The notes under the pieces are model-generated. The model did no database searches. It saw only the letters and a list, made by a program, of their open reading frames with translations, and had not been told where the DNA came from. DNA of 64,000 nucleotides, taken from Sabellastarte sp. h YS-2021. Taxonomy: Eukaryota; Annelida; Polychaeta; Sabellida; Sabellidae. The translations under genes and the position numbers were made by a program. The DNA lies in contig OZ024935.1 of NCBI GenBank assembly GCA_964017235.1, positions 2,542,001 to 2,606,000 of the forward strand, in the 5' to 3' direction. Numbering within the stretch: position 1 is the first letter of the stretch; every line of letters starts with the position of its first letter. Shown here in pieces: positions 22,801 to 49,800 of this stretch.

Positions 22801-25800
22801 TAGGAGCAACTCTGCTACAAAACAAGCAACCTGTAGCTTTCGCTTCAAGGGCTCTCTCCAAAACAGAACAAAATTATGCGCAGATAGAAAAAGAGTGCCT
22901 CAGCATTGTATTTGGCTGTGAAAGGTTCAGGCAATATCTACTGGGTCGCAATACTATATATGTGGAGTCAGATCACTAGCCTTTAGAGGTCATCTTCAAA
23001 AAACCTCTGCTGTCAGCACCAAAGCGCCAGCAACGTATGTTGCTGAGACTACAGCATTACAACCTGGATGTAAATTACAAAAAAGGATCTGAAATGTACA
23101 TCGCAGATTTTCTGTCAAGGGCAAGCCTACCACACAGCCAGGACAAAACAAATGACTATGACATATTTAGCTTGGAGCTAGAAAATATGAACTTTGCAGA
23201 GTTTCTCCATATATCTGATACACGACTACAACAGATTCAGAAGCTCACATGCTCAGACTGTCAACTTCAGACACTGAAAACAACTATCCTGGCTGGTTGG
23301 CCCAACTGCAAAGATGAAATTCATCCAAGCATCAGAGAATTCTGGTCCATGCGAGAAGAACTAACCATGCAAAATGGCATCATCTATAAGGGTCACCGAG
23401 TCATAATTCCCAAAGCCATGAGAGCTGAACTCCTCAGTCGCATTCATTCTAGCCATTTAGGAGCAGAAGCATGCTTGCGCAAAGCTCGTGACGTTGTTTT
23501 TTGGCCACACATGAATGCAGACATCAAAGAGGAAGTAGGCAACTGTGCAACCTGCAATGAATCAATTGATAACCAGCAAAAAGAACCCTTGTTGACACAT
23601 GAGATTCCGAGTCGTCCCTGGAGCAAACTTGGGATAGATCTCTTCAGTATAAGAGGGAAAGACTATATGGTCACAGTCGACTTTTACTCAGATTTCTGGG
23701 AAGTTGACAGATTGTACAGTACAACAACAGATGCCGTTGTCAAGAAACTCAAGAGGCATTTCAGTCGATATGGAAGACCTGATGCTGTAGTGACTGATAA
23801 TGGACCACAGCTGGTCAGTGATGAATTCCAAAAGTTCAGCACTGACTGGGAATTTGCCCATATAACATCATCTCCTTACCACAGCTCATCAAATGGTAAG
23901 GCAGAGTCTGCCGTGAAAATTGTGAAGAAATTAATCAGAAAGACTCAGAAAGATGGAACAGACATTCACAAAGCAATTTTAGACTGGCACAACACACCTA
24001 CAGTTGGCATGAACAGCAGCCCGGCACAGCACCTGATGTCAAGACGAACTCAAACGTTACTTCCAACATCAGAACGTTTACTGCAGCCTGAAGTAGTTCC
24101 GGATGTCCATGACAAGATCACACAGAAAAGACAGCAAGCCAAAAAGCTGTATGACAAACATGCAAAGCCACTTCCACAGCTAGAAATTGGAGAACCTGTG
24201 TATGTGAAACCACTTCCTCAAACTAACAACAAAACATGGAAGGAAGGAGTGTGCACAGAGAAGCTTTCACAAAGGTCATACAAGGTTGCCGTAGATGGCA
24301 AAACAGTCAGAAGGAATAGGATACATCTTAAGGAGAAAATACAAGACAATACAACCTCAGAGGAGCAAATTGAACATTCGACCCAAGATCAGCCAACAGA
24401 AGTCAGAAGAAGCACCAGAAACAAAAAGGCACCTGATGTGTACCAGGCTGGTTTTAGCTAACTGATTAAATGAAATTCTTGTGTAAAGTTTATTCTTTTG
24501 TTTAAATTTGGATACACTCACTTAAACTGTGTATGAAAAAAAGGATGTTTGGAAATACTGTAATGAACAAGCCCTGGAGAGGCTACTGTTATTAGTGAAA
24601 TGCACTGAGGTCAAGCAAGTTGTTTGTACGAAAACTCACCACATTATAAATGCATTAAAAAGCACTTAAACACAGAGATCCTACAAACCTCCAGATATCT
24701 GGAGCAGTTACTTTTGGGCAATGGCTTTGTAAAGATGTATCTCCTGTTTCTAACATATCCACTATTTTGAATGTTAAATATATGTAACTTGAAAACAGTC
24801 TGCTATATATTGTGTCAAAGTGTTAGGTGAATATCTATATATTGTTTAGTAGAATTGATAGAAGTCAAATTTTGGGGGTAAATTTATTTCCGACTTTATG
24901 TCTGTAGTTCTATATAAAATCCCCTAGTGACCACTGCTCTGACACATGCTTTAAATGAAACAATATGATAATTTGTAAGCTTTTCATTGGTTGTGTACTA
25001 AGTTCCACCAGACATTTGTATTATTGTCAGTTTAAAGGTTGAAAAGTTATTGAGCAAAGTAAACAGTAGGAATTAGTATTTGATGTTTTCTTTGAATACT
25101 TAGTCATTAGTATTGACGTTGTTTTCTTTTTTATATGTATATAATCTATTTGAAGTTTGTGCTTTTGCCAGTATATATTTTTGGTCAAGTATCACATTAG
25201 TTTACAGTCTCAAAGATAAGGTAACCCTAAATTACACTTTGGAAAATCTATATTTTCTATTACTTCTTATGTCTTAACTTATATCTATGTCAGCAGTCAG
25301 CCTCTATTACTTGACCCTGGAGGAAGTTGTTGAAGATTACTAAAGAAGACACAAATGTTACTTACAGATATAATTGTGTGTATCTTTGTCAGGCTGTGAG
25401 TAAAGTGGACCCAGAGACCCAGAAACAGAGGAGGGAGGAACAGGCCCGCCGACTTAAACAGGTGGCCGCCAAAAAACGCGAGGAAAAGGTACGTATTGAG
25501 TCCCTGATATTTAAATATTATTGTTGTATTGTTTGTATTGATTTATACTCAGCACAGTATCTCCATATACTACAGGACTCAAAACCCTATATGACCCATT
25601 CGTCTGCACAGTTACAATTACAGTCCAACTCTCAAGTTACTGACATTCTCCTAACTGAAAGACAGAGGCTCAAGGATGACCATTTATAAACGTCCTTGAG
25701 GTTCTTTAGCCTGGGATAGGGATAAATATATGGTACTTTATATATATCTGTGCACGCGATCCTTACAATTGGTATCACAGTTTCATGAAATTAGCTTGTT

Positions 25801-28800
25801 TCTTGAGCATCGTCAACTTGGTAGCACCCCTAGTGTTTCTGATGACAGCGTTGTTCTGTACTACATTACGGGGGCTACTGTTATGGTAACACACTCACCT
25901 CCCAATCTCTGAGGTCAGAGTTTGAATCCTTGCCTGACCTCATGTGGGAAAGCTGGTAGTTGGTGGCCGTTGCAGTTTATAAGGTCAAGGTTAGGGTTTT
26001 ACATCGCATTCAACAGCCAGGGTGACATTGGTACAGGCCCCATTGTCACTTGTGGGGGTCAAACCCACACAGAGGTCGCAGCCTGTGATTAGATGCCAAA
26101 CTTGCTAACCACTAGGCCACTGAGGACCTCTTGCAGTTTATAGTACAGAACCTTGACGAAGTGTATCTAATGCCTTCCTTTGCTCCTTTTAACTACCGGT
26201 CACAGTATAACTAGTAAAGTACTAGGTACGATGTAAAACACTGAATAAATAAATAAATGTACTAAATTACATGTTTGTGTTTAAGGATTGAGTGCCATGT
26301 TGAGGATTGATATCGAATGAAAGTTTCTTATACGTGGTTTTGATATTGAAATGCTGGTAGTATGTGTCGATATCGGCAGTTCCGTAGGATGATCGATCGA
26401 TATTGAAAGATCAAGCACCAATCCCTATACTATTTGTGTTTGGTTTCTGTATGTTTGTTGTGTATTCTTTCTGTATTTACCGGTGTATTCCTATGTGTTT
26501 ACTCTTTACCACACACTAAGACAAGCTCCTGAAGCTGGTTCTGTGTAATTAGAATGCAGTCTATGTACAAATGTCTTTGAGTTTTGTGTATTTATCAAAT
26601 GCTCAGTCTGTATTTATAGTTTGGTCTCTGAGGAAAACAAGTGGCTGGGTCGGTGTGTTTTTCATGTATTCAGACTGTATTCATGAGTGTATCTCTGTGT
26701 ATTTCCATGTATTCACAGTTGGCATCAGAACAAGACAAGTTACAAGAGTTGGTTCTATGTATTTAGTCTATTTTATCATGTATTCAGACTGTATTCATGA
26801 GTGTACATCTGTGTATTTCCATGTATTCACAGTTGGCATCAGAACAAGACAAGTTACAAGAGTTGGTTCTGGCTCAGCAGATTCTGGAAGAAGAGGAGGA
26901 TGAGAAGAGATACAGGGTGAGAGTTCTCAGCATTTCAGTCACTTACCATATTGATATATAAACATTTATGATTTATTCTCCACTGTCAATGCTTTGTTGG
27001 CTTCAACCTTAAGGATGTTCTTTGGAAAAATTGGGTTGAAGTTTTTATCAGGGATTTCTTTTTGAAAAGGGATGCTTTGATTGTTTCAGAAAATCCTACG
27101 TAAGATAGGAGTTGAAGACGAGGAGGATTTACAGGATACGATCAACGAGCTGAACAACTCCATTCACAAACTGATGAACAGGATACAGGAAGAGGCCACT
27201 GTAAGTGTGTGTGGCTGGGTGTATGGGTCTGATTGCCTAGTTTTATGTGTCTCCATACACTAATTAACAGGATACAGGTGGAGGCCACTGTAAGTGTGTG
27301 TGGCTGGGCGTATGGGTCTGATTGACTAGATAGATATCTCCATATACTAATTAACAGGATACAGGAAGAGGCCGCTGTGTGTATGGCTGGATGTATTGGT
27401 ATGACTGGTTGTATATGTCTTGATACACAAATTTATGAATAGAATACAAGAGGGGGTCACTGTGAGTATGTGTGTATGGCTGAGTGTATGGTTTCTACAC
27501 ACAAACTAATGAACAGATTGCAAGACGAGGCCACTGTAAGTGTGTGTATATGGCTGGGTATAACAGTCTGACTGCCTGGATGTGTGAGTGTGTGAGTATG
27601 TCTTCATACAGATATATGTGAACAGGAATACAGGTCAAGACTACAGTGAGTGTGCATATGGTTAGGTGTATGGGTCTGACTGGGTGTGTGTCTGTCTGAA
27701 TGTACAAACTGATAAGATTATGTGTGTGAGTGAAAATTTTGTGCAAGTCATTAGTGGGTACATTGTTTATCGATAGCGATATTTATTGTTTTGGGATAGG
27801 GTTGCTGATATTAATGTAAACAGCCCTTTATTCATTATCGGCATTTTAAGTATAACTATAAGCTTACACTGTGAATATTTGAAATAAACCCTAAATATGA
27901 GGAAATTCTACACATTTATGTCTTATTTTGTAGTTTTTAATGCATTTTTTAGCAGAACTACTATGTTGTTGTTTTTTATGATAAACTTTTTTTCCTGTTA
28001 GCAGCCAGTAGGAGATATGCAGGAACAAAACTTTTTCAGAATCCCAGATTTAGACTCTTTAGTAGACAATATTACCCCCAAATAATAATGAAATATTTTT
28101 CACATTCTACATCAGTGTTCACATAGCCAAAAGATGTACTCACTAAAATCATCTGTAGTGTCACCCAGTCCTTTAAATTTAAAGAAATTAAAAATGAAAA
28201 GAAATTATTTGGTAAAATATCAAAACAGAAAGTATTCTTAAAAGCATTTTATCAAGAAAAAAAGACACGCCACAATCCCGAATTGGATCAAAGTTCAACA
28301 CCATCTTCTAGGATGTGATAAATTCCTTGTCTGATATGTTCTCTATTCCTGATACCTTCCCCAAGTCTTGCTCTACAGTTTTTTATGTTTATCTACAGAA
28401 GAACAGTTCTAAGACTTCCTCCAGTGAAGCCAAGAAAGCAAAAGTGGAGAAAAAAACGGTGAGTAGTAGAATTGTGGTGGTTGCTTGTTTTACACTAATC
28501 AAAATAATATCTCCAGTAATAAACATATGAATGTCATATTTCTGCTTCTACTGGTTACTTTTTATAGACGTTGACAATTCATAAAATTTAATGTCCTTGT
28601 TAGAAATCTGTGGGATTATATCGGGTCTTTTCAAAAAAAGAGAGATGTTTTCTACAATGTTTACACTTCCTCCCAATTTAAGATAGTTAAGGTGTAACTT
28701 TAGGTTGTTTTAAAAAAAGTTAGCTGACACTGTGCCCAGTTGACACTGTATTCTTAGTTTTAGTGCCATTCTAATATTATTAGTAAAACGTTCTTTTTGT

Positions 28801-31800
28801 TGTTATTCAGTTATTTTGACAATTTGTCCCATTTTAGGACATCAACGATCCTCCAGTAGGACATGAGGGCAAGATGAAACAGTGGCTGGAGGCCATACAG
28901 TCCAAACGGCAACAGCTACTCAACAAGAAGGAGGAACGGAGACGTAAACGCACAGACATGACAAAACGCAGAACCCACGCATCCCAACAGAGAATGAGGA
29001 TCATCACCGAGCTAGCTCAGGGTAAGAAATAAACACAGCGAATGTACAAATGCACATAAATGTATGGTCTTTACCAAATGCAAAACTTACACCTCACAGC
29101 AAATGGCGAGTAGCATCACTGAGTTAGCCCAGGGTAAGAAGTGAACACAGAGAATGTATATGAATGTACAAAACAATGTAACAAAGATAGTTAACAGTGT
29201 ATTTTACTAGTCTTTATCTTTACTATTTCTTTTTTACCATTATACAGCTCTTTTGCTATGGGAGTCTTCATTTTAACTTTAATTAAAATTATGTTCCAGT
29301 TATTTGTATTATTAACTTTATGGTAATATATCCATTGACAGCTATAATTACGCGGCCCATCAGGGGCGCTTATTTGTTTTCACCTAAGTTTGACTGATCA
29401 CTGCCGGATTATGGTCTCCCTTGAATAACGTCTTGGGCTTTTAAATTTTTTCTTTTTCCTTCTTATGTTTCTTTAAAACTATAGGTTCGGGGAAAAATTT
29501 TGGGATACTTTGCAGAGACCTTAAGCTTTACTTAAGGTAACCTTAAGCATTTTCAAACACCCCGTCATCGGTTTTCAGAAAAAGCCACACACACCTGGGC
29601 TATAAAATTTATCAGGTACATTCTAAACCTAAATGCGCAGGTTTTAAAGGATTTTCTGATCAAACAGACCATAGATGCCTGAATGGGAGGCTTTTCATTT
29701 TTGTATTTTATTTTAAAATGGGTACTTTGTCTGCATCTCAAAAACGGTCTGGATTTTGGCGTTTTCTGGAATAACTTATTCAGCTACTTTTTGATAATCT
29801 TTCAAATGCTGAAGTTTTAGCCCTGTATCTGCTATCTTAAGGTCACATTAATGTCAAAACTGGGGGTTTTAACCCACCAGTTCACTTAGTTTTTCACTTT
29901 TTTCAACCAAACTTGGCATATATATTAAGATTTACCAAAGGATTAACCTGACTTTATGGTGACCTTAACCTGTTAATATAATTGGAGCTATGCCCCCCCC
30001 CCCAAAAGTCATAAAATTGGCATAAAACCGTCTGGCCCCTTTATTTTTTCCATTTTTAAAGAATCTAATGCATAGTGATATTGAAGTTGATCAAAAGAAG
30101 ACTCTTACTACCTAACGATTTAAATATTAATAATGTTATGGCCATCTTAAACTTAAAACGTAGGGTTTTTCAGTCCTAAGCTCAGTTAATGTTTAAATTT
30201 TTAAAATAAAACTTGGCACATTTATAAAGGTTGACAGAAGAGACATTCTGATTTTATGGTCACCTTAAAGTCCCAATATGAATGAAATTATGGTCACCTT
30301 ACAGTGAAAAAAAATAAGTTTTCAGCCTCCAGCTATCTTATTGTTCATCTGACCTCAGCTAAACTTTGTGCACTTATAAAGGATGACAAAAGGCACATTC
30401 TTCTTTTATGGTCACCTTAGAGTCCCAATATGAATGAAGTTATGACCAGCTTGATGTGAAACTATGGAGTTTTTAACCTCCAGCTATTGTATTGTTCAGC
30501 TGACCTCAGTACTTATTAAAGATGACAATAAGGACATTCTTATTTTCATTCCACCTTGGAGTTCCAATACAGGTACAGCCATGGCCATCTTGAAGTAAAA
30601 ATGAGGGTTTTAAGCCGCCAACTGACTTATGGTTCCATAATATCAGTTTAACTTGACACATTGATTAAGATTAAGGAAGATATTTATGACCTTTTTACTT
30701 AAAATTCTTGTATTTCAGAGACTTTGGCCATCTTAACATAATCGTAATAAATATATAGTTTTATTTCATAAAAATGTAAATATACTATACCATATGAAAA
30801 CACTTGGGTAGGCGTGGCTTGGCGTTCGGTGACCGCCACGTACACCGTACATAGAATTTAAATATATGAGGGGAGACCCTCTTTAAACCTATATACTTGC
30901 TACCTTTGACCCCTGGTGACCTAATTCACTCTGCCATGCGCAGTAATACAGAAATAGTTCATTCTTTTTGTGGCGGTTGTAGTGTCAACAGGCATTTTTG
31001 CTATGTCACTAAGACCTGCATTTACACATTTTTCATGCTCTGTAAGTACACTTAAGCTGTTTTATTCACTTTTCGTCCATTTTATTTACCTTTTACTTCA
31101 ATTTCTGGTGAATTTATTGTATACTTTGGGCAATATTTTACGTATTTCTTCAAAATTCGTATTATCGGTCATCTGGTCACGTGGTGTTAGAATGTCGGAT
31201 TGCCTTAGGAGATATTCATTTCCTTAGTAAATTAATTCTTTTTATGCACTTCTACAGGCATTTTTATTTTAATTTACCATTTCCCTTCATTCTTTCAACG
31301 AAATTCTTCGTTTCTCCACGTATTTTGACCGTATTGTCACCTTGACTGTGCATTGTTTTTCACGTAGATACCTATTTGGTATTTTCGCTCATCGGGTCAC
31401 GTGGTGTCAGAATGTTGGATTTCCTTTGGAAATATTCATTTCCGCAGTGAATTAATTCCTTTATGCACTTCTACAGGCATTATAATTCATCTTTTACGGT
31501 TTTCCTTCATTCTTTTTACGAAATTCTTCGTTTCACCGCGTATATTGACCATATTTTTTAGCTTTTTACGAATCATTCACCAGGTCATGTGACGAGGACG
31601 TCACATCCAAAATGGACGTCAACCGATCGGTTGTCAGAAAATATTCATTTTCATAGTGATTGCAGCATTTCCAGGTTTGTTTATACATTCCTTCTACATA
31701 TTTCTTGTCATTATGTCAGAGCATAATGTGTAATAATTTCAATTGTTAACGCATTTTTCATAGCGTAACATTACGGTATTTACTACCTACCATTCACGGT

Positions 31801-34800
31801 TCTTTACTTGTACAGGCCCTTTCATTTGACATTTCTGGAATTCGGATCCTGGTTTCAGTGTTTTGGGGTTCAATTCTGAGCCTAGGGTCTCCATTTTTAG
31901 CCTTTCTCCACCTTCAATTTTGGAGGTTGGGGGTTTACGGCTTCTGGGGAGGACTTTGTTTTCCACCTTTTGGAGATCCATTTCACTGTTACTGGTTTCC
32001 TACATTCCAATTTTGTCATTTTGGTCATTTGGTTTCTCAGTCCATTTTTAGTCCTTTGGCCTCTTTTGTGCCTAGGGCTCAGCCTAATCAGGCTGCTTTT
32101 TGGGCTAGGATTACCTTATTCAGACCATTCATGTTCAGGGTCCTTTTAGAAAAGTTTATCAGTTGAATCCAACTGATTTTCTACTCCCTAAACACAGCTC
32201 CATTAATTTTCTAAATCTAGAAAATTTTTGTTTGGGGTTTGGTGGAAATCTTCTGTTACTCAACAGCTTTCTATTGTGTTTTCACCATTTTTTAGATCTG
32301 ACGATTAATGGGCACATCTCCCTTTTGGGTATGTTGGGGGTTCCTCTGTCTACAGTTAACCTTCAGACTTCAGGAACCCTATTCCAACTTTTTGGTGCCA
32401 GTCTGTTGGACTATATGGGTGCTTAGGACTTCATCCAATAATCTTCTCCACAGAAGATTTTCAAGCTTCCTGTCTAACAGAATTAGGGAATAAATTTGAC
32501 TGCTCTTTCCTTTTGATCAGTCTTATTTTTCTCTAAGTCAACCACTTTTCCCAGGCTTAGAAGTTCCTTCATGAGGCCAGATACTTACTTTCTGTCACTC
32601 ATTCATTTTGGGATCTTCTTATTCTAACTTTTGTAGGTTGGGTAATTACCCAATTTTCCTTCTAAAACTTAGTTTTGCCAGGTAGAAATCCTCTTCAGAG
32701 GGTTTTTTGGGTTGACTTGCTCAGGTTTCCGGACCTGGGATCTAGCCTGATGGGGTTCTTAAGACCTTCTCTTCCCTAGGTAGAGTTCCTCTGCTATTAG
32801 GGGAGATCTGAGATGGACCTTAGGGTCCTTATTTCTGTGGGATTTTTTCCTTCAGTCCTGTTTTGTTGATCACTTAACCAAGTTGATTGACAAGGCAATA
32901 CTTTCTCAGTGGTCTTTTCCATCCACCATTCTTTGGACATCTCTTCAATGGGTCTTCTAGCTCCATTTTAGCTGGTTGATCTATGGCCCTTTTTCAGCCA
33001 TCTTTGCACTTTGTTTTGAGAGATTTCTTTATACATTTCCCTCACTTGTGCTTAGTCACTTGGTAGGGTAAATTGGTCCTATTTTGGTCTTATGCTGTTT
33101 CTTGTGGCGTCTCTCTTGGGAGACCATTTCTTCTCACATATAACAGTATGTTTTTGTGTGATGCGCCTTAGAGTCTGTCTTTTGACGGAGATTAAGCGCT
33201 ATAAAAGTGCTATTAGAATTAGAATTATTAGAATTAGTATAAGCAGAAGCTTTTCATGTGGCCCTTACTCAAGGTGCGTCTTTTAAGCTATCTGCATTAG
33301 CCTTTTGAGGCACACCAATTAAGACCTTTTTCCTCCCATCCATTTAGTGCTTTAAGGATGTGGTTCCTTTCCAGGTTCCAACATTCTGATGGTGGAATGC
33401 CTTCCAGAGGTAGAGGCTCAGCCTCAACCTCTATTATGGTGTCCTTCAGGAGATAAGAGTGTTGTTTTATTCAAATTTTCACTCTTACTTCCAGATCCCT
33501 CCACTTGCCAGTGGGAGGTCAACTGAGTCCAGTGGTCTCTCAGATTCCACTTTCCTGATTCTTTCAGCTCTTCTCCACAGAAGAATGCTGTTCTTTGTCT
33601 TTCAGTCTCACACTGTCTGTTCACATGAGCAGTTCAAGTATCATGAGCTCCTGTTTTCCTGATTTTTCAGGGCATTATCCTTGACAAAGATATACTGGAA
33701 ACCACCATTAGATTTATATCTTTTCCTGGTTTTCCAGACTATCAGGATGCAACTTATCAGTTGATCATTTTCTCAATTGGCCAGTGGACCACTTCTCTTC
33801 CTCAATTGCCTCCTTTCTCTCCTTTGGCTCCTTTGGTTCACTCTTGCTCATAGTTTTGCTTTTGGGCAAGGTGTACCACTTTGTGGCAATGCCTTTTGGT
33901 CTAGCCACTAGCCTTTCAGGTTTTTCTTCCTTAGTCAAGGAAGTAAGGAAAGTTGGCTTTGAGGTTGGGCATCTCAGTGCACATGTGACTACAAATTGGC
34001 TCATTAGAGCCAATAGTTGTCAGAGGCTCATTTACCAACTCTATTAGAGTTGACTTTGGGCTTCCACTTGGAAGCCGCTTCTTCAAGGTCCCTGCACATG
34101 ACACTTCTTCTGTGTCATCTCAGGACACTTGATTTTCCTTCTCAAAGGTGCTCTGGATTTTCAATTTCTTGATCCTTCTATGAAGGTTCATTCAAGATGG
34201 TACTATCCTGGGAACTATGTCTTTGCATCCCTCCCTTTAATTCCCTAGTTTTTACATCTACTTTCATGGATGTTTCACTGCAGGGTTTGGGAGTTCTTTG
34301 TGCTCTGGACCACCTAAGGTCTATTTTTGATGTAGCAGTCCAGTCTGTGCATCAGTTCTAGAGCTCATAGCTGTCCTTTTTGCTCAGACATTTGTTCCTG
34401 TATTATCCTTTCATCAAAGGATCATCCTTTCAGCCTCAAACAACTCAGATTGTCTTGTTCTCAAGACATTTGTTCCTCTTTTGTCCTTTCTTTAAGGGAT
34501 TCTTCAGATAGTCCAGGTAACACTGTTGTCTGGGCTTTCTTTATATCAAGACAGCTTCCACTCTTGGGACATGTGTATTTTGGCATCTTTTGCCATTATT
34601 TTTACAAGAACAAGTCTGTTCTTCCACCTCATGTTCCAGGGGCATGAATCCTTGGCAGACCATCTCTGGAGGTCTTTTCTCACCTTTCATATAAGGTGGC
34701 CCTTCAATTCTTGGATCTTCAGATGGTAGTCTCAGACTTCTCATCTTATTTAGATCTCTTTTGCCATGTGATTCAATCACAAGCTGCTCTTACATGTGCC

Positions 34801-37800
34801 TCCTGTGCTAGATCCTTAGGCTCTGACAACAGATGCCCTGGAGTGTTTTGGTCCGGAGTACTTGTTTTACTCCTTCCCTCCTTCAGCTCCTTGTCCTCTA
34901 TGGCCATGAAGTTAATCAACTTTCAGAGCTGTATCATTCTTCTTGTAGCCTTTCCTGGTAATTGCCAGGTTTGGCCTCAAGATCTCCTTTAAGAAAGCCA
35001 TTGGCTCTTCCTCTTATTCTTCTATAACAATCTCATCTAGAGTTTTGTTATTTATTTGTATGGAGTTCCTTTCTTCAAGCTTTCTGGTTGAAGTCTCCTT
35101 TAAGAAGAATTTTCACAGGAGGGGTCTTGGAGGATTTTTATCCTCCATAACTGTCTATGAAGCAATGTGGAACTGCTTCAAAAACTTGTGAGAAACATGG
35201 CCACTCTGCCATGCTTCAACTGTCCCATTTATTGCTGTTTGTTCCTTTTAAGGAATTATTTTTCAGACAATAGGGATACAGGTCAGCTCTCTCCAGGTAC
35301 TACTTGGAGTTGGGTTCTTATAGGGAGCTTGGAAGTCTCTTTTAGAGCTTCTTTAAGTCCACAGTAAGGGTAGTCGTCACCTACCTTTTGGTACTTAAAC
35401 CTTGGTTCTGCAGGCTCTTACCAAGGCTCCTCTTGAACCCTCTTTACTTGCTGAGCCAAGTTTTTCACATATTAGACAGTCTTTCTTACTCCCTTTCTTT
35501 GGGAAGGAGAAGGAGTGATTTTGATTCCTTTATTTAAAGGTTTTCTCTCACTCTCTAGGGATGGCCTAAGTCATCCTTAAGTCAGATCTTACTTTCCTGG
35601 CTTAAGCCAGTTATCTTCAGAAGGCTCTTTTTCCGATGCCACCAGTCCCGTGAGAATCGGACAAGCGGAAAAGGTGAAAGCGGCCGTTTCCGCTGACCCT
35701 CCGGTACTGCCCATCTCAGTATATAGCCAATGCTAAGTAAATGCTTGATATGAGAAATGGGCTGGACGCAAACAGCCGCGGTTTCCTTTGCGAGCTCACT
35801 ATCTTCACCAAATTTGGGGGATGATTTCATATGTCCCTGACCTACATTTGACCCAAGCAGGGCCTGGCTGGGCCGACTTTGTGCACATTGCCACCCCTTT
35901 TCCTTAGATGGTATACCAGACCTTATATACAGTAAATATACAGTGGTCAAAAAGTCGTCATATTGTCAACGGTTTTACCAGGCATTCAGGTGGCCCATAG
36001 ATACAAGACAGACACCAAAATACAGGACAAGCAAAGACCTTTCCGATGCCACCAGTCCCGTGAGAATCGGACAAGCGGAAAAGGTGAAAGCGGCCGTTTC
36101 CGCTGACCCTCCGGTACTGCCCATCTCAGTATATAGCCAATGCTAAGTAAATGCTTGATATGAGAAATGGGCTGGACGCAAACAGCCGCGGTTTCCTTTG
36201 CGAGCTCACTATCTTCACCAAATTTGGGGGATGATTTCATATGTCCCTGACCTACATTTGACCCAAGCAGGGCCTGGCTGGGCCGACTTTGTGCACATTG
36301 CCACCCCTTTTCCTTAGATGGTATACCAGACCTTATATACAGTAAATATACAGTGGTCAAAAAGTCGTCATATTGTCAACGGTTTTAGAGCATGACGTCA
36401 GCCGTCTCAGAACCGCTTTGCTTCGGTGCACTGACATACGGAAGAAGTAAAAGAGAAGGGGGGGGGGGGGGGGGGGAGTGGGGGGGGAGAAAAAATCTTA
36501 TATATATATATTTTTTTTTTTTTTTGCTTTGACTTTTTGTCTTTGGTCAGGATGACTTAGAAGACCTCTCCTTTTTTACAGTCAGATTCCTAAGATACTT
36601 TCTATCTAGCTATTCTGACTTAAAAGGATTTCTTATTGGTCTTTCTTCTGAAGTCCAAGAGGGTGATATTGCTGCTCAGACAATATCTTTTTGGATAGCA
36701 CTTTATCCTTTATTCCCTCAATCTCTGTTCCACAGAGAATGCATCTCTTCATGGTGTCAGGGCTCATCATGTCAGGGCACAGGGGGCTTCCTGGTCCTTT
36801 AGGGGTGGAATCCCACTCCTAGTCAACATGAGATCCTGCACGTGGAAGAGCCATTCCACTTTTACATCCTTCTATTTTAGGAATGTATTTGCCTTCAGAG
36901 ATGTTGTTCTTAAGAATCTCTTATGATTTCTTAAGTGGAGTGGACATCCTTTTCCACTCAGCCATTTCTCTCCTTTTTGAATTCCTCAATTTAAGTCCAT
37001 CTGAAACTTTTAGTTTCAGAAAAAGGGGGGTGGCATTTCCCTTTTAGGGAATCTATTCTTCATCTCTATTTTCAGAACCGTGCTTCTTAGTGCCTCTGGG
37101 CATGTTGCCATTCTGAGCACAGGGCATACTTATGCCTTCTCCTTTGAGCTGACCTAATAGGGTGTAGACAGCAGTGTTGAAGTTAGTGCAGTGGTTAATG
37201 CTACTCACTTAACTCACTCGAGTTATTGCTTCAGCACAGAGGTTTTGGGTTCAATTGCATTGCACTAGGAAGTATCCTTTTGTAGCAATTTAACCTTAGG
37301 GTGGTTTTCCTCAGGCTGTCTTTTTCCCACCATCCTTCCATGTGGGCATTCAACCCAAGTGTTTTCATATGGTATAGTATATTTACATTTTTATGAAATA
37401 AAATTTCATATTTTTAAATGTAAAATGCATTTTTATGAATAAAAATGTATATACTTACCATATGAAAACAGCAAATCACCCTCCCGCCTGCCCCGCTTTT
37501 AAAGACCTTTTTCCAGCATTTATGTTTATTCACAAAAAGAATGAACTATTTCTGTATTACTGTGCATGGCAGAGTGAATTAGGTCACCAGGGGTCAAAGG
37601 TAGCAAGTATATAGGTTTAAAGAGGGTCTCCCCGCATATATTTAAATTCTATGTACGGTGTACGTGGCGGTCACTGAACGCCAAGCCACGCCTACCCAAG
37701 TGTTTTCATATGGTAAGTATATACATTTTTATTCATAAAAATGCATTTTACATTTAAAAATATGAAATTCTTGCTCCCACCTCATTTTTTAAGACTTTTT

Positions 37801-40800
37801 AAAACCACACCTGGTATATTTATACTTCAAACAAAATTTTGTGCTATCTGGCAAATCTAACCTCCTAGTGTTTCTGAAGTTATGGCATCTTCAAAGAAAA
37901 AAATGATATATTTAGCATTCACTGAGGTGGTTATTAACATATTGCAGCGATCAGTGATTCATATAATATAAATTCCCCATTTTAGGCACATTAAAAAAAT
38001 CCCACATTATTCTGATTCCACTTGTGGAATTGTGTGGATATGCCTTTTCGGGGGAAAAAAAGCTTTAATTGATTCATCTTTTACTTTGCAGCAGGAGTTG
38101 TTGATCTAGCTACTTAGTCACAGAGATTATGTTAATAGGTCAAATGTATAGACTTGACTTCCTTCAGAAGATAAGATGACTAGGGAAAAAATACTTTCTC
38201 ATAAACAGTTTTTCATGTACAGTATTTTATGTATCTCCAGCTAAGTGAAAATTAATAACTTGTCTCTTTTTTCTCTTTCATCCAACTCTGTATTTCCTTT
38301 TGTGTGCTATCTATCTGGAGGCAGGTTCATGGAAAGTCCCACTCACCTGCAGGGGTACTATTGTGTTTTACATAATGTGTCTACACACTGAGTGAAAAGG
38401 TTGATAAGAGATATCAAGATGCATTCATTTCTTTTCATTAAGGGATATGCTTGCAGTAAATCTTTTTGGGGGTAAACAATTCAAACAAGGACATTTATCT
38501 ATAGGTTTATGGAAGTGGATCCTTATGGAAGTAATATTTTGTGGAAAGAATGTCTTGTCTGTTTTGAGAGAATGGAAAAAGCCTTGTGTAAAAACCTCAG
38601 TGTTTCAGGATGTTCACATTTAGAGTCATGTGTGAATGAAAACTGTTAACAGTAACATCTAACAACACGACTTTGTGAATTCTTTTTACAATGGAACAAT
38701 ACAGGATTTCAAAAGGAGGATTATCTTAAGAATATTTGTCTTATAAAAATATCAAATAGTAATGAACTTTCAGAGGCATAAAGTGCCTCAAAGATATAAA
38801 ACATATGAATGTATCTAACTAAAGCCAATCACAGTTTACTACAGTATATCTTTATCATTATAAATCTAGAATTAAATATCTTCTGGAAAAAAATTACGAT
38901 CCCAAATTTGCAGCTACAGTTTCTCTTCAGGCAACCTATAACAAAAATGATTCGTAAAATATACTACTTTACGAAACTCAATAAAGCTCACATTCTGCTT
39001 ACAGCTTAATACTGCAACTGCTATAGTTTTTAAATAATCCACTTTTTGATCAGACACAAAACACAGTAAAGCTTATATTCTGCTTACAGTCTCATACTGC
39101 AACTACTACAGCTCTCCATCTGGGCCGCTCGTTTTTGTTAGCAAAAAACCTTTTTCTAGTTCAATTAATAAAGAGATCAGTTAATAAATTTTGCAACTTT
39201 ATACCTTTTAGTTTACAAATTAGTGTTTTTTTCTTGCAATCAAATGATCTCGTTTTGACACTTTGTCTTTACACAGATTTTCTCTGTCTTTTGATTTTTA
39301 TGTCAGCTGACTTGTCAGTCAGCTGACATTATGTCGTCACTCTGCGGCGTGGGCGTACGCGTCCGCGTACGCGTCCGCGTGAACAACTTCTCCTCCAAAA
39401 CTACAAGGCCTAGAGACGTGCTGTTTTTTTTAAAAGATACCTTATCTATCGAGGATGAAAAATTGTTCAAGGCATGCAAATCTGTCTGTTCGTCTGTTTG
39501 CTAGAGACATTACAAGGGGGGTACCCCCACCAAAAGTGTGAAAATTTCAACACTTAATCACAATTTTCTCAGTGACTATTGCAGGGATTTCTCTCATATC
39601 TTGCATATATGTACTAGGCCACAGGTAGATTCTCTTGTGTGAGTATGAGACCTGGATCTGTCTTACTTTTTTTTAATAAATTTTTTTAATAATTTTTAAT
39701 GCATTAAAATTCATGAAATCATGCACAAAATCATTTATAACTTGAAAAGTGTTGCATTTAGAGCATTTTGTTAAAATATGTTATTCAGCTACTTTTTTCA
39801 TAGCTACAATATGGTGAGTAAGTTGGGTGCCTGTCTCAATAGCTAAGTGAGTAATAGCTACTTTTGGGCTTTTCAGTAACTTCCATCATGAGTAAAATCA
39901 CTTGTAACTTAAAAACTATTGCATTTAGAGAATTTCGTATAAATATGTTATTCAGCTACTTTTGGGTCAGCTATAACATAGTAAAATTTTAGACCTGTAG
40001 CTCATGGCATAGCTGAGTAATAGCTACTTTTAGGTTATCACTGTTGAGTAAATCGCTTATAACTTCAAAACTATTGCATTTAGAGAATTTCGTATAAACA
40101 TGTTATTCAGCTACTTTTGGGTCAGCTATAACATAGTAAAATTTCAGACCTGTAGCTCATGGCATAGCTGAGTAATAGCTACTTTTAGGTTATCACTGTT
40201 GAGTAAATCGCTTATAACTTGGAAACTATTGCATTTACAGTATTTTGTTTCAATATGTTATTCACCTATTTTGGGATCAGCTATAACATAGTGAAGTTTC
40301 AGATCTGTGGCTCATTGCATAGCTGAGTAATGGCTACTTTGAAGTTCTCACTATTGAGTAAATCACTTGTAACTTAAAACCTATTGCATTTAGAGAATTT
40401 CGTATAAATATGTTATTCAGCTACTTTTGGGCCAGCTATAACATAGTGAAATTTCAGATCTGTAGGTCATGGCATAGCTGAGTAATAGCTACTTTTAGGT
40501 CATCACTATTGAGTAAATCAGTTGTAACTTGAAAACTATTGCATTTACAGTATTTTGCTTAAATATGTTGTTCACCTACTTTTGGGTCAGCTATAACATA
40601 GTAAAATTTCAGACCTGTAGCTCATTGCATAGCTGAGTAATAACTACTTTGAGGTTCTCACTATTGAGTAAATCAGTTGTAATTGCAAAACTATTGCATT
40701 TAGAGAATTTCGTATAAATATGTTATTCAGCTACTTTTGGGCCAGCTATAACATAGTAAAATTTCAGACCTGTAGCTCATTGCATAGCTGAGTAATAACT

Positions 40801-43800
40801 ACTTTGAGGTTCTCACTATTGAGTAAATCAGTTGTAATTGCAAAACTATTGCATTTAGAGAATTTCGTATAAATATGTTATTCAGCTACTTTTGGGCCAG
40901 CTATAACATAGTGAAATTTCAGATCTGTAGGTCATGGCACAGCTGAGTAATAGCTACTTTGAAGTTCTCACTATTGAGTAAATCAGCTGTAATTGCAAAA
41001 CTATTGCGTTTAGAGAATTTCGTATGAATATGTTATTCAGCTACTTTTGGGCCAGCTATAACATAGTGAAATTTCAGATCTGTAGGTCATGGCACAGCTG
41101 AGTAATAGCTACTTTGAAGTTCTCACTATTGAGTAAATCAGTTGTAATTGGAAAACTATTGCATTTACAGAATTTCGTATAAATATGTTATTCAGCTACT
41201 TTTGGGTCAGCTATAACATAGTGAAATTTCAGACCTGTAGCTCATGGCATAGCTGAGTAATAGCTACTTTTAGGTCATCACTATTGAGTAAATCAGTTGT
41301 AACTTCAAAACTATTGCATTTACAGTATTTTGCTTAAATATGTTGTTCACCTACTTTTGGGTCAGCTATAACATAGTAAAATTTCAGACCTGTAGCTCAT
41401 TGCATAGCTGAGTAATAACTACTTTGAGGTTCTCACTATTGAGTAAATCAGTTGTAATTGCAAAACTATTGCATTTAGAGAATTTAGTATAAATATGTTA
41501 TTCAGCTACTTTTGGGTCAGCTATAACATAGTAAAATTTCAGACCTGTAGCTCATGGCATAGCTGAGTAATAGCTACTTTTAGGTCATCACTATTGAGTA
41601 AATCAGTTGTAACTTGAAAACTATTGCATGTACAGTATTTTGCTTAAATATGTTGTTCACCTACTTTTGGGTCAGCTATAACACAGTAAAATTTCAGACC
41701 TGTAGCTCATGGCATAGCTGAGTAATAGTTACTTTGAGGTTATCACTGTTGAGTAAATCGCTTATAACTTGGAAATTATTGCATTTAGAGTATTTTGTTT
41801 CAATATGTTATTCACCTATTTTGGGGTCAGCTATAACATAGTGAAGTTCCAGACCTGTGACTCATTGCATAGCCGAGTAATAGCTACTTTGAAGTTCTCA
41901 ATGTTGAGCAAATCACTTATAATTTGAAAGCTATTGCATTTAGAGAATTTAGTATAAATATGTTATTCAGCTACTTTTGGGTCAGCTATAACATAGTAAA
42001 ATTTCAGACCTGTAGCTCATGGCATAGCTGAGTAATAGCTACTTTTAGGTTATCACTGTTGAGTAAATCACTTATAACTTGGAAACTATTGCATTTAGAG
42101 TATTTTGTTGCAATATGTTATTCACCTATTTTGGGGTCAGCTATAACATAGTGAAGTTCCAGACCTGTGGCTCATTGCATAGCTGAGTAATAGCTACTTT
42201 GAAGTTCTCACTGTTGAGTAAATCAGTTGTAATTGGAAAACTATTGCCTTTACAGAAATTTGTGCAAATATGTTATTCAGCTACTTTTGGGTCAGCTATA
42301 ACATAGTGAAATTACAGACCTGTAGCTCATGGCACAACTGAGCAATAGCTATTCTCAGGCACTGACTGTTGAGTAAATCGGCTATAACTTGAAAAATATT
42401 GCATTTGGAGTATTTTGTTAAAATATATTGTTCACCTACTTTTGGGTTAGCTATAACATAGTGAAATTACAGACCTATAGCTCATGGCATAGCGGAGCAA
42501 TAGCTATTTTCAGGTTCTCACTATTGAGTAAATCAGTTGTAACTTGAAAACTATTGCATTTACAGTATTTTGCTTAAATATGTTGTTCACCTACTTTTAG
42601 GTCAGCTATAACAGAGCAAAAATTCAGACATGTAGCTCATTGCATAGCTGAGTAATAGTTACTTTGAGGTTCTCACTCTTGAGTAAATCAGTAGTAACTT
42701 GAAAACTATTACATTTAGAGTATTTTGTTAAATATGTTTTTCACAGACGTTTTGGTCAGCTATAACATAGTGAAATTGCAGACCTCTATGTCATGGCATA
42801 GCTGAGCAATAGCTTCTTTCAGGTTCTCACTGTTGAGTAAATCATTGTATCCAACCTGTAGGAAATCATGGGCTGGGAATCTGTTAATATGGTCCGATTT
42901 GACCTTGGAACCCTCCTTCAAGGTCAAATGAGGATAGCCAAACATAAAAGTGCTTATAACTCGCTTATTATTGGTCCTACAGGTTTGGAATGAAAACCAA
43001 CCTATAGAAAATCATGAGCTGGGAATTTTTTGGTGTGGTCGGATTTCACCTTGGACCCCTCCTTCAAGGTCAAATGAGGATAGCCAAACTTAAAAGTGCT
43101 TATAACTCGCTTATTATTGGTCCTAGAGGTTTGGAATGGAAAACCAACCTATAGAAAATCATGGGCTGGGAATCTTTTGGTGTGGTCAGATTTCACCTTA
43201 GACCCCTCCTTCCAGGTCAAACGAAGATAGCCAAACTTAAAGTGCTTATAACTCGCGTATTATTGGTCTTGGAGGTTTGGGATGGTAAACCAACATATAG
43301 GAAATCATGGGCTGGGATTCTTTTGGTGTGGTCAGATTTGACCTGGGACCCCTCCTTCAAGGTCAATTGAGGATAGCCAAACTTACAATTGCTTAGAACT
43401 CGCTTATTATTGGTCCTACAGGTTTGGGATGGTAAACAAGCTACAGGAAATCATGGGCTGGGAATTTTTTTGTGTGGTCGGATTTGACCTTGGACCCCTC
43501 CGTCAAGGTCAAACAAGGATAGGCAAACTTAAAAAGTGCCTATGACTGATTTATTATTGGTCCGAGAGGTTTGGGATGGTAAACCATCCTAAATTCTTTG
43601 GCTGGGAATCTTTTGGTATGGTCAGATTTGACCTTTGGACCCCTTCTTCATGGTCGAACGAGGATATTGCATTTATAGTATTTCTTTAAATATTTTTAAC
43701 CTACTTTTTACACTTAAACAATTACCTTGTTACTTTATTTCATAATACCATTTGCAGGGCACAACTTTTTTGTCCTTTTTTTCTGTCAGCTTCGGAATAT

Positions 43801-46800
43801 CTTTCGAACATGCTGTTCAGTTACCATTTACTGTATTTCTGTACAGCTCTTTCCCTGATAATTATGCTTTCCTCTCATTATCACCATCACAAATCAAAAA
43901 CATTCAGTCAGCTGACACAGTGCCCGTTCACGGGCACTCTCCTCTTGTTTTTCTCTTGCACCTTTATACAACTAATACTCTCTCTTCTGAAAGACACTTT
44001 GTACTTTTACACCTCTGCAATATCTCATTGTATTCAACATTATTTCCCCAGGTGCTAGCATCTCTGATGCTATTTTTTTTAAGATTAATTTTTGGCTACT
44101 CTGTCAATTTGACAAACTAACTAGTTAAATAATTGAATTATTGATTGCTCTAATTCTGTATTTCCAGGCAGAAAGAGTAAAAAGGAGGACACATTTGGCA
44201 TGCGCGATGAAGACTGGAACGTCTACAAGGAAATTGTGAGTTTGTGGAATTGGCTTTTGGTAATGATGAGTTTCTCATGGTTGTTATGTCATTCATGTAA
44301 ATCTGCACTGTAGCAACTAGGATTTGAATTACCTTTTTACCTTAGCCAGTTGACACATTTGGTTGTAATGCAGGAGATGGATTGTAGCTTTACACCAGTG
44401 CTTAGTTGGATGACATAGTTTGTTATGTTGCTTCAGTGTGTAGAGAGACTTTCTGTGACTGCTGTCTCTTTAGTAAGTACCCCACTTAGAGAGTTTTGGT
44501 GGAAATTGTTTTTATTATTGTTTCTAGAGGTTTGGCTTCGCAAACCAACCTATAAGAAATCTTATGCAGGGATTTTCTGAAAATGTGTCACATTTGACAT
44601 TGATCCTCCCCTTCAAGGTCAAAAAAGGATAGCCAAACTTAAAAAAGTTTTTGTTTTAAACAACGATTGTCGAAATGTAAAAGTGTTTATTAATATGCAG
44701 GAATTTGTGGGCTTGGAGTTTTTTTATGTGGTCTGATTTTACCGTGGGTCCCCAGTTGAAAGTCAAAGTGGCCTAAATAATAGTGCCTATATAGTCCTCG
44801 TTATTGACCCTAACATGGGTGCTAGGTGAAGAGCTTGTTAACTAAGGTATTATATCTGTGCAGTGCGCTTGGTCCAGTTCGTCATTTACCACATGAAGGG
44901 ACACAGTGATGTAATTCACTCCAACCCAAAAGGTCAGGATTGAATTCACAGACCGTACCTCAAATGGGAAAGTAGGTAGCTTTTGATGGCTGACTTTTTA
45001 CAGGACTGTGACTGGACTGACTGGTATGTGTTTCTCTCTGTACTCCATTACAAGGCTTGCAGGACAAGATGTGATGCTGTCCTGCCGTGATCGTACCTGC
45101 TTAAAGGGACGTAAATCCAAAACTTTATCAGGCAGTCTTGCGTTGTTGCCCACTAAAGATGGCCATTTTATTTTTCTGATTGGGAGTTAAGTTTGCTGTG
45201 TTGATTGTTTCAGACTTTCATAGCGTGATTGTTGCTGTTGCAAGTAGGAACAGTTAAGTAGGCTCTGTATCTCTGTGTGAAGAGCATTTAAGTGACATGC
45301 CATGACAACATTTAGCAACTACCTTGTTTATCAACTCGTATAATTTAAGGATAAGTAAAGATAATAGATACAAACCCTGTAATTGCAGAAATTATGAGCT
45401 TTGTGTGATATATTTATGAACCTTTATAGCGATTTTGTTTTACCAGAACTGCCATGTTTTGGTTTCATGAGTTTCACTTCCTGTCAGTGGTTTTATTGGT
45501 GAGATACCAAAACAGAAAAATATGCCTACTACCCATCCCAAGCAGAAAGGGACATAAAGCTAAACCTTTGTTGGGCGGTCTTGGGTTGTTGCCCATTACA
45601 GCCATTTTTAACCCCAGCCCATAAAGGCTGGGGTTATAGTCGTCCCCTGTGCCGTCCGGGCTGCAGCAGTAGCAGTGGGGGCGGCGGGCATAAAGTTTGT
45701 GGGTGTTCCACAGCCTAAACCCCTGCATGGATTTCACCAAATTTTCTGGATATATTTAGTGGGATATCCAGTAATAACTGTTGGCATGGCAACACTTTTA
45801 AGATTTTCAAGTCTTAAAGTTTGTTCTAAAATCTTTAATGTTTTCTGTAACCTAAAATATTGCACCTAGCTTCATCAGATTTGCACAAAATGTAAATGGA
45901 TAGGAAAGTTTGCCTTGTTTTGGAAACAAAATGGCCGCCATATCACATCTTTAATGCCAAATAGGAGGGCAAAAATACCAAAAAGGCCTTATATCTCCCT
46001 TATAATTGTTTCTTGGGCTTCAAAATATGAAAACTACTTGTAAGAAATCATGACCTGTGAATCTTTTGTAGAACATCTCGTGGGTTCTCTATACTTCTTA
46101 CAACAAGTTGTTCCTAAGATTTTCCCAAATCTCAATGTTGTTGGCCATTTAGCTGTACCTGCGGGCTGGGGTTCTTGCCTGTCGAGGCTGGCTATCTTCT
46201 TTTTCTGATTGTGAATTAAGTTTGTTGTGTATTGATTGATTGGTTCAGAATGTGACGGCAGGAGATTCAGACTCTGAGGCAGAACAGGAGCAGATAGATG
46301 AGCTGGAGACTTATCTGAAAGAGTATGACCCAGAGTACAGAGAGTGAGTAAAAATGAGTATAAACAGAGTACTGAGAGTGAGTAAAAGTAAGTATAAAAC
46401 TAAGTACAGATAGTGAATAAAAGTAAGTATAAAATTGAGCACTGAGTACTGAGTGAAAATAAGTATAAAACTGAGTACAGAGAGTGAGTAAATATGAGTA
46501 TAAAACGGAGTACTGAGTGTGAGTAAAAGTAAGTATAAGTTCAGAGAGTGAGTAAAATAAGTGTAAAACTGAGTACTGACAGTGAGTAAAAGTATAAAAT
46601 TGAGTATTGAGTGAGTAAAAAAAGTATAAAACTGAGTACAGGGAGAGAGAGTAAATATGAGTAAAACTGAGTACTGAGAATTAGTAAAAGTAAGTATAAA
46701 ATTGAGTACTGAGAGTGAGTAAAAATAAGCATAACACTCAGTACAGAGAGTGAGTAAATATGAGTATAACTGAGTAAGAGAGTCAAAATTTTACTATTGA

Positions 46801-49800
46801 GTGTGGAGAATGTGTGAAAATAGATCAAGCATTTAAAGTGCGTAAAAATAATGAGAATTTACAGACGCTAATTACAGAGTGCAAAGATGGTGTAAAAGTA
46901 GTTCTGAGAGTGTATAAAATATCAGCTACAGTTACAATAAAATAAAATCTATTCAAAAATTTATTCCCATATTTAAAACTTTCTTATAGCCAAGAGAGGT
47001 CATTTATGTTCATAGATTCTTCCTGTATCTTCCAGTATTAATGTTGTATTTAATTTCACAAATTTTTGCTGTGTTCTGTACACTTTGTATTGTACGTTTC
47101 TGCAGTTGCAGTGAAGCTTCAAGTTCTGTGGACATCAGGGAATACTACAGACTGCACATAGCTGTTGAACAGATCAGGTCAGTCCCATTGAGTGTTTGAC
47201 TTGTTGTTTTTAAGTGTACTGGAGCAGTGGATATCTAATCTAATCGTACTCTTAAAAACACCTAATCTTTGTACCAGCATATGCAAAGGTGCAGAAACAG
47301 AACCAGCAGGTTTAAGTCTCTTTCCTGAAATATGTTCAAGGGCAAGCACTATGGATATGAGGTTGTAAAGATTTTTCAAAACACTTAGGGACATTTTATT
47401 GCTGTGAAGCTCTAAATTGCTCATTGTGCAAGAATGGATTGTCCAGAAGACAAAAACCATCATCCACAAAAGGTGAGATAGTTTGGGTGGTGTGGAGCCA
47501 AGTCTGAACAGAGTCTTTAGGTTTTGTGTGAAAAAAGCCTTTGGTTGTTTGTTTGATGTTCAGATTAGATAGTTCTACAGATGTAAGTCTCTAGCTACCA
47601 AATTAATTGTGAATATGCATGCCAGAAATCAACAATCTGTTGCCACGACCAAATTTACTTGAATTTACCATTGCAGACAGAAGGTTAACTTGAATTTAGA
47701 GCGTTTCATACTAAATGTTGTACTTCAAAAGGGCGTACTTATGAACTGTTAGCAATATTCAGTTGGCAGGCAATTCAGCAAAAACAATTTTGAACTTGTG
47801 TAGCTATGTTGGCCCTCAATAATGGTTGCTTGTTCAGTCAATCTGTATCAGTCTGAGATAGTGGTGTCATCACGAGCAGTCATATCGCCAGATTCACGGG
47901 TGATAGAATAAATGAACAATAATCGAGGATCAGTCTGTGATGCAGCTTATGAACATTATGTATTCATTTTTATTAATATATATTAATAAAATTTTTATTT
48001 TCATGCGGTTTATTTTGATTTATGATGTAACTATGGTGATGACAACATCCTCTCCTACATAGCTCTTCCTACAGGAAGTATAACATGTAAGTTTTGATTG
48101 TAGAAATGATGTCCTCAGGTTCATACTCTATGACCTCTATAAAAGGACGGTACTTCCAGCGGATAATGGACGAGCGCAGTGCGCGAGTCCATTATGCCGG
48201 AAGTTTCGTCCTTTTATAGAGGTCATAAAGTCCGAACTTGAGGACTTTATTTCTATTATAAAGACCAGTTTATTTCATTAATCCATAAATAGTATTGTAA
48301 ATATGTTGTTATACACACCTATTTGTCACACTATATTTTGTGTGTATCATTTGGTTCTCTATTATCGGCGATCGTCCATTTATTGCCTCAGATAAAGGTA
48401 CGCAAAAATATGCGCACTGCATTGTTTTGTGTGGTCTGCACACTTCCGGTCTTTATACTACATTTTATTGCTCCAATTATTCACCATTTTAACAACTGTC
48501 AGCACAAAAGAAACATAAAATCTAATATATTTCAGTATAAGTTATCAATGCACATCTATTTATAAGAGCAAATATAGGTTTAATTTGTGAAGCGGTGGCA
48601 TCGTAATATTGCTCACGGTTTTGTTCTCTGTATTGAGACCTCAAATACCCTGACGATGACACCACTATTCTGAGAGAACCTTTATAAAGGCTGGGGTAAA
48701 CCATCAACCTGAAGTACTAACCCTTCTTAGTTCAAAGTTGGGACTAACCCTTCTGACTACCTGTATTGTTGACAGGGTTCTATGAGTTGATATATCAGCC
48801 CTCCATACTAAGCATAAAACAGACTTAAATACTACCTCTTATGACTACTTCTATTGTTGACAGGGTCCCTGAGTTGCTGTTCCAGCCCTCCATGCTAGGT
48901 ATAGAACAGGCGGGACTGGCAGAGACCATAGGATTTGTACTCAGCAAAATGTCAGAACAGGAACAGAACCGAGTTGTACAGGTGAGGGTTAAGGTTGTAC
49001 AAGGTCGAGATATGTCTGTACTCGGTCAGCCAACGTGGGCGATATTTACAGCAATAAAGCTTAGAGTCGGGTACTCGGGTATGTGATTTTTGATTCGGGT
49101 AAATATTCAGGGTTCAGGTACCCGGATATCCGGATAACCGTTGAGATCACTAAAAAAACCAACACTGAATCAGATTCTGCTTGTAGATCTTATACCTTAA
49201 TAATAAAATTAATATAACACTACTCTAATGATCAAGACCACACATGTGCAGAGTAATTAGTGACAATGTTTTATTTTTATCTCCAACTTCTTTGTGTTGA
49301 TCCTGGGGTCCCCTTATAAGTGGGTAGGCACATTGTTTATTGATGTTAAACCATATCTATTGCTTTAGAACAGGGTTGTAGGTATTGGTGTGTTACAAGA
49401 AATACTATTATTGACAGCATAACACATAATCATTATAAGTATCGTTAATTCAGTGCACTGAATCTCCCGCAGTAGATTAATTCTACTTCTGTTTTCTGTT
49501 TTAGCACGTGTTTATCACTGGTAGCTGTGGCTGTCTGCCTCACTTCAAGCCTCGACTAGAACATGAGCTTTTGATGCTCCGCCCTTTCCAGTCCTCGTTT
49601 CAGGTCCACTCAGCAGCCAATCCAGAGCTGGATTCCTGGAAGGGAGCTCGGCAGTGGGGAATGAGTGGCAGTTTCAACACAAAGGCAGTCACTCGGGCGG
49701 AGTATGAGGAGCATGGGAGTGGCTACCTGAAGGAAGACTCGGTAACAAATAGGTACTTCCCCTCACCTGGTGGCGGGGTACAGGGGGAGGAGACACTGAT

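Follow-up and report, generated by a model that had tools for sequence, protein, structure and literature searches.

Local copies of splice junctions in an ACTR5 gene of the annelid Sabellastarte, with candidate decoy splice sites

The window analyzed in this study, a 64,000-nucleotide stretch of Sabellastarte sp. h YS-2021 DNA (contig OZ024935.1, positions 2542001-2606000, in a genome assembly of 1.786 Gb and 647 contigs), contains an ACTR5 gene in which parts of several splice junctions have been duplicated locally. At five of the 30 junctions of this gene, namely the acceptors of exons 8 and 15 and the donors of exons 9, 11 and 13, a nearby copy carrying both exon and intron sequence was identified. 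We consider it likely that these copies arose by ordinary local tandem duplication of the minisatellite kind, which in some cases straddled a junction and was tolerated since the native exon is retained with the exon-side copy, whose site is favored by exon definition.

Junction-spanning copies in the ACTR5 gene

The gene model that was built comprises 16 exons and 15 GT-AG introns and encodes a 681-aa product. This product resembles ARP5 over most of its length, above other actin-related proteins. The best match in PDB was ARP5 (E=1.3e-137), with aligned blocks at residues 7-371 and 512-659 of 681, and all six matches at E<=1e-60 were likewise ARP5, while the Pfam search returned Actin (8.7e-54).

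Sequences of 60 nt on either side of each junction were aligned to the surrounding 1500 nt in both directions, and 300 dinucleotide shuffles per junction provided the noise level. The five spanning copies had scores of 59-181, compared with a shuffle maximum of 28-32 for each of the five. Every one of them lay on the intron side of its junction, which is a matter of geometry, because the true exon has to stay continuous. The first-pass annotation had listed six such duplications, of which these five were retained; the sixth, at the exon 13 acceptor, was rejected as a junction copy, as the copy at 45161-45210 aligns only to positions -60 to -7 and consists of intron only. This copy is one member of a duplication of ~110 bp within the intron, the true member of which was later split by a dispersed repeat. 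A match at the exon 6 donor (score 28) was also rejected, being inside the shuffle noise (highest shuffle 42). The features involved are as follows.

26658..26756, + strand: copied exon 8 acceptor unit, upstream of the true one, with a decoy acceptor before 26719 and 38 nt of exon copied (97% identical)
26833..26916, + strand: exon 8, with the true acceptor at 26833 (gene model, ARP5 homology)
27174..27262, + strand: true unit with the exon 9 end and donor, exon end 27200 (gene model, alignment)
27263..27697, + strand: five further tandem exon 9 donor units (79-89% identical over the aligned part)
28996..29064, + strand: true unit with the exon 11 end and donor, exon end 29021 (gene model, alignment)
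29108..29180, + strand: copy of the exon 11 donor unit, decoy exon end 29133 (84% identical)
45161..45210, + strand: intron-only copy of the sequence preceding the exon 13 acceptor, without exon sequence (alignment)
45603..46203, unstranded: insertion of a high-copy dispersed repeat just before exon 13, splitting the true member of the above duplication (DNA search)
46333..46783, + strand: 35-bp x 13.4 array of which the first 11 nt belong to exon 13 (exon end 46343) and the rest to intron 13 (repeat detection, alignment)
48743..48806, + strand: copied exon 15 acceptor unit, upstream of the true one, with a decoy acceptor before 48776 (83% identical)

The exon 8 acceptor copy extends over 98 nt at 97% identity and lies one period of 114 upstream of the true unit (26772-26870); a possible older copy at 26461-26543 is weak, with 67% identity. 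The exon 15 acceptor copy covers 60 nt at 82-83% identity (true unit, 48831-48893), and the exon 11 donor copy 69 nt at 84%. For the exon 9 and exon 13 donors, the duplications had been noticed earlier with copy numbers that proved too low. Six units are present in all at exon 9, the true one and five copies starting at 27263, 27350, 27435, 27509 and 27619, the best of which matches over 85 nt at 88% identity. At exon 13, where the best copy matches over 76 nt at 91% identity, the 451-bp array contains 13 GTRAGT motifs, against 0.85 per kb across the gene. Head-to-tail units of ~10-100 bp in several copies, as in minisatellites, were thus found at exon 13 (35 bp x 13.4) and exon 9 (six units), while exons 8, 11 and 15, with about two units each, fall short of the several copies of a minisatellite.

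The range of identities, from 97% at exon 8 to ~80% for the most diverged exon 9 copies, argues for several events, and the junction copies probably differ in age. In DNA searches with 26400-29200 and 46300-49000, the matches listed comprised the locus itself and one dispersed element per query, with the best 40 of 2345 and the best 40 of 2270 candidates scored and words common in the genome skipped. A local origin of the copies is suggested. Repeated local duplication, as put forward by the first-pass annotation, was therefore borne out to the extent that the copies are real, look locally made and have diverged to different degrees.

Splice motifs are the same or nearly the same at many of the decoys. 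Scored with splice-site frequency matrices, the exon 11 decoy donor equaled its true site, seven of nine exon 13 decoys equaled or slightly exceeded the true donor, and two of six exon 9 candidates equaled theirs (one of these six, at 27583, lies outside any aligned copy). A total of 18 candidate decoy boundaries were tested, and each would give a premature stop, at 324-536 of the 681 residues.

Frequency of copies at junctions and in introns

By position, the ACTR5 junctions are not special. Local copies with scores of at least 50 were present at 17% of the junctions (5/30) and at 23% of the grid points across the gene. Among grid points more than 1 kb from any junction, 30% lay in local duplications at this score, or 12.5% once large satellites were removed, and 12-17% of 392 intronic controls placed 150-900 nt into ACTR5 introns had a copy. 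For the proposed clustering of affected junctions in the insert of exons 8-13, the counts were four of the five matches on 12 of the 30 junctions (one-sided p ~0.07, hand arithmetic).

For comparison with other genes of this genome, 41 stretches (33 totaling 252 kb and eight of 1.4 kb) were taken from the actin-related, CCT, cullin and myosin families; these are conserved, exon-dense stretches and not a random sample. Profile-match rows used were 28 of 97 for actin, 50 of 55 for CCT, 34 of 35 for cullin and 9 of 78 for myosin, the rows left out being mainly single-exon and cytoplasmic-actin-like matches. Within the fetched stretches lay 86 of the first 112 rows, with first and last exons taken without their outer edge. 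From the 162 edges found, four were dropped for weak motifs, and the remaining 158 were later joined by 18 junctions with only ~700 nt searchable on each side, giving 176. These control junctions are profile-match edges shifted to the best nearby splice motif, some of which may be wrong, and the list is confined to exons covered by the profiles.

Using 60 nt on either side and a range of 1000 nt, copies were detected at 5, 4, 3 and 2 of the 176 junctions at scores of 36, 50, 80 and 100, respectively. A match of score 51 at L021:5551, obtained with 20 stretches and 134 junctions, was rejected, as it stems from another CCT exon of similar sequence, which lies at a distance of 1.5 kb and hence beyond this range. 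Using 30 nt on either side and a range of 400 nt, copies were found at 7/176 junctions versus 318/2309 intronic controls at score 28, and at 3/176 versus 242/2309 at score 50. Coverage by short duplications in these genes fell from ~8% beyond 600 nt to ~1% at the junction. A bias of duplication towards exon edges, one of the two options raised by the first-pass annotation, is not supported by these numbers, and the other option, tolerance at exon edges, is the better fit. All seven other-gene cases, some of them weak, were intron-side. Local duplications with scores of at least 36 occupied 20% of grid positions in the 33 larger stretches and 24% in ACTR5, so the duplication process is a common one, with no restriction to junctions. 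Tandem duplications are frequent in introns of this genome.

The same structure was observed in Cullin-1, CCT and myosin genes. In the Cullin-1 gene (stretch L025, minus strand; PDB Cullin-1 match, E=1.9e-36), a 56-bp x 34.9 array with 98% matches at L025:1656-3722 lies directly before a true exon and ends 14 nt inside it. Its unit consists of the acceptor and the first 14 nt of the exon, and the CAG acceptor is kept in all 35 units found, counting the true one. A second array in the same gene (L025:7101-7524, 54-bp x 7.9) ends in another true exon and holds eight units with an acceptor and exon start, again counting the true one. Two degenerate upstream copies of an acceptor were seen in the CCT stretch L040, and a 21-bp acceptor repeat in another cullin (L024). 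In the myosin stretch L047, degenerate units of ~30 bp lie upstream of an exon (~240-600 in gene orientation), many of which by eye resemble an acceptor and exon start. The exons of the second Cullin-1 array and of the L024 repeat are outside the junction list, so that neither enters the counts given above.

Splice-site choice and competing explanations

The pattern would follow from random tandem duplication in introns, in which some events by chance straddle a splice junction. The copy adjoining the exon would stay intact and the extra copy would fall on the intron side. If the spliceosome pairs the sites nearest to each other across the exon, as exon definition implies, the extra copy would be spliced out and nearly neutral, and could therefore persist, decay or grow into an array. 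Use of the true sites in the living animal is inferred here, and so is the role of exon definition as its cause.

Support for such a proximity rule is provided by work on human cells (PMC9225289). In minigenes with two identical strong donors in an exon-defined context, the exon-proximal donor alone was used, and for near-equal competing donors with long flanking introns the sites nearest across the exon were favored. For acceptors, exon definition merely weakened the opposite preference. Under this rule, donor decoys are therefore predicted to be silent, whereas acceptor decoys may leak. The introns holding the five ACTR5 decoy copies range from 762 to 15146 nt.

Several observations weigh against tolerated, chance duplication as the whole account. 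Firstly, ACTR5 had copies at 5/30 junctions as opposed to 4/176 (p=0.004) or 7/176 (p=0.018) in the other genes, and at stricter scores the contrast was in part less marked, with 3/30 versus 2/158 at 80 (p=0.03) and 3/30 versus 1/158 at 100 (p=0.013). This excess is left unexplained by a purely neutral account, but it is tempered by the gene having been picked after the pattern was seen. The comparison with other genes that the first-pass annotation had proposed thus places ACTR5 higher, in a gene selected post hoc, while the same structures occur in the other genes. Secondly, in a locus permutation, 5 of 19 short duplication loci in ACTR5 contained a junction against 1.86 expected (p=0.029), which is a weak excess; for Tandem Repeats Finder (TRF) arrays alone, the values were 4 of 9 and 1.76 (p=0.057). 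Thirdly, short-duplication coverage within 300 nt of the ACTR5 junctions was 13-16% and, unlike in the other genes, did not fall towards the exons, for which a purely neutral account likewise offers no explanation. Lastly, the proximity rule comes from human cells, and in that study all architecture classes showed a preference for the downstream donor when no equal-strength filter was applied, which speaks against a simple form of the rule (PMC9225289). The short intron 8 (173 nt), which separates exons 8 and 9, also means that exon definition is not assured beside these two exons.

The permutation excess, together with the recurrence of acceptor-seeded arrays in CUL1, CCT and myosin genes, is what would be expected if splice junctions were mutational hot spots for tandem duplication, for example if slippage were promoted by the AG and its pyrimidine tract or by structure in the nascent RNA. 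We regard this as unlikely, given that coverage in other genes drops towards the junction, that copies occurred there at 3-7 of 176 junctions compared with 10.5-13.8% of the 2309 controls, and that at the base-pair level ACTR5 junctions are not above the introns of the same gene.

The decoys could alternatively be functional, with premature-stop transcripts tuning the dose of ACTR5 or with alternative products being made. The premature stop at 18 of 18 candidate sites would agree with this, as would the GT-purine-AGT donor kept in four of the five exon 9 copies despite an overall identity of 79-89%. By reasoning, however, most stretches of intron that are added to a transcript would contain a stop by chance, and retention of the donor motif in the exon 9 copies (82%) is hardly better than that of the copied exon part (78%). 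The kind of copy and its divergence also vary from junction to junction, and a functional role seems quite improbable to us.

It might also be that the repeats came first and that intronic repeats already present later supplied the exon edges, which would suit exon 13, whose end (residue 509.7) is outside both human ARP5 blocks, and exon 9, whose end (residue 374) is right at the margin of the first of them. The starts of exons 8 and 15, on the other hand, can be aligned to human ARP5, and both Cullin-1 array exons to human Cullin-1, so that at these junctions the exon predates the copies, and we find recruitment in this manner hard to credit. An assembly artefact, with the copies being haplotype or misassembly duplicates, is highly improbable: the exon 8 copy is 97% identical and perfect repeats are present in the window (an exact 348-bp repeat in intron 11, at 35630 and 36040), but the best copies at the other four junctions are 82-91% identical with a tandem structure, unlikely for haplotype errors, and the same arrangement is found on other contigs.

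Known systems, significance and other features of the window

Among the papers listed by searches of the open-licence literature for junction-derived minisatellites and duplicated splice sites, a case in potato was the sole direct precedent recognized. In the RdRp gene PGSC0003DMG402000361, a tandem duplication across an intron-exon boundary made a new intron, which was supported by RNA-seq (PMC4974935). In both systems, local tandem duplication copied the beginning of an exon together with the 3' end of the intron before it, including its acceptor, pyrimidine tract and branch site; a nearby copy of this type, with intron and exon sequence, is what was found at the five ACTR5 junctions. Unlike in potato, the ACTR5 copies seem to have become intron, donors have been copied too, and in several cases the units have multiplied into long series. 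ACTR5 also differs from a supply of spare splice sites by tandem duplication as such, in that the copied segment comprises more than exon sequence and the 681-aa frame is complete without a gained intron.

Dual-specific splice sites in tandem repeats have been described for UBC and VCX3A, where one AGGT can act both as donor and as acceptor in transcript repeats (PMC10809524). The likeness to ACTR5 lies in splice motifs within tandem repeats, and the difference in that each array reported here adjoins a single exon, on its intron side, and bears sites of a single kind. The intronic variable number tandem repeat (VNTR) of ABCA7 is likewise an intronic tandem array and reportedly affects splicing; the units observed here contain an exon edge. 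For the growth of junction units to long arrays, as in Cullin-1, no description was found in these searches of open-licence papers.

The decoys would make a reasonable natural test bed for splice-site choice, as had been proposed at the outset. Should decoys bearing the same motif go unused in living animals, the choice of the true site would have to depend on information beyond the copied unit, the simplest candidate being the distance across the exon. Series of natural tandem copies, and the 35-unit acceptor array of Cullin-1 in particular, would then test the proximity rule without minigenes. They would also illustrate how splicing can conceal tandem duplication at an exon edge, possibly as a first step to new introns. 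A broader and more doubtful proposal, which we put forward only tentatively, is that in this animal splice junctions repeatedly seed minisatellites, with units of a complete acceptor or donor plus exon edge growing on the intron side (up to 35 units of 56 bp) and the spliceosome ignoring all but the exon-side copy. With copies at 2-4% of sampled junctions, extrapolation would give thousands of exons with natural arrays of equal competing sites, testing the exon-definition proximity rule in vivo and providing raw material from which introns could be gained and exons extended.

Other features were noted in the course of the analysis. At G000:C14:20123497-20142816, a myosin-head exon match (positions ~127-173) recurs nine times, every ~2.35 kb, and six of the nine have a listed partner exon (167-200); these may be tandem exon copies or cassette exons. 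Within ACTR5, intron 6 contains retrotransposon-like open frames at window positions 20448-24458, with the Pfam domains gag, reverse transcriptase, RNase H and integrase. The exact 348-bp direct repeat of intron 11 occupies 35630-35977 and 36040-36387, 410 bp apart, and may be a recent duplication or an assembly error. Intron 11 also harbors two adjoining satellite arrays, at 39889-42849 (155 bp x 19) and 42851-43666 (146 bp x 5.6). In intron 14, a dispersed element with a self-complementary part lies at ~48093-48467, and its best 40 copies elsewhere are 88-93% identical.

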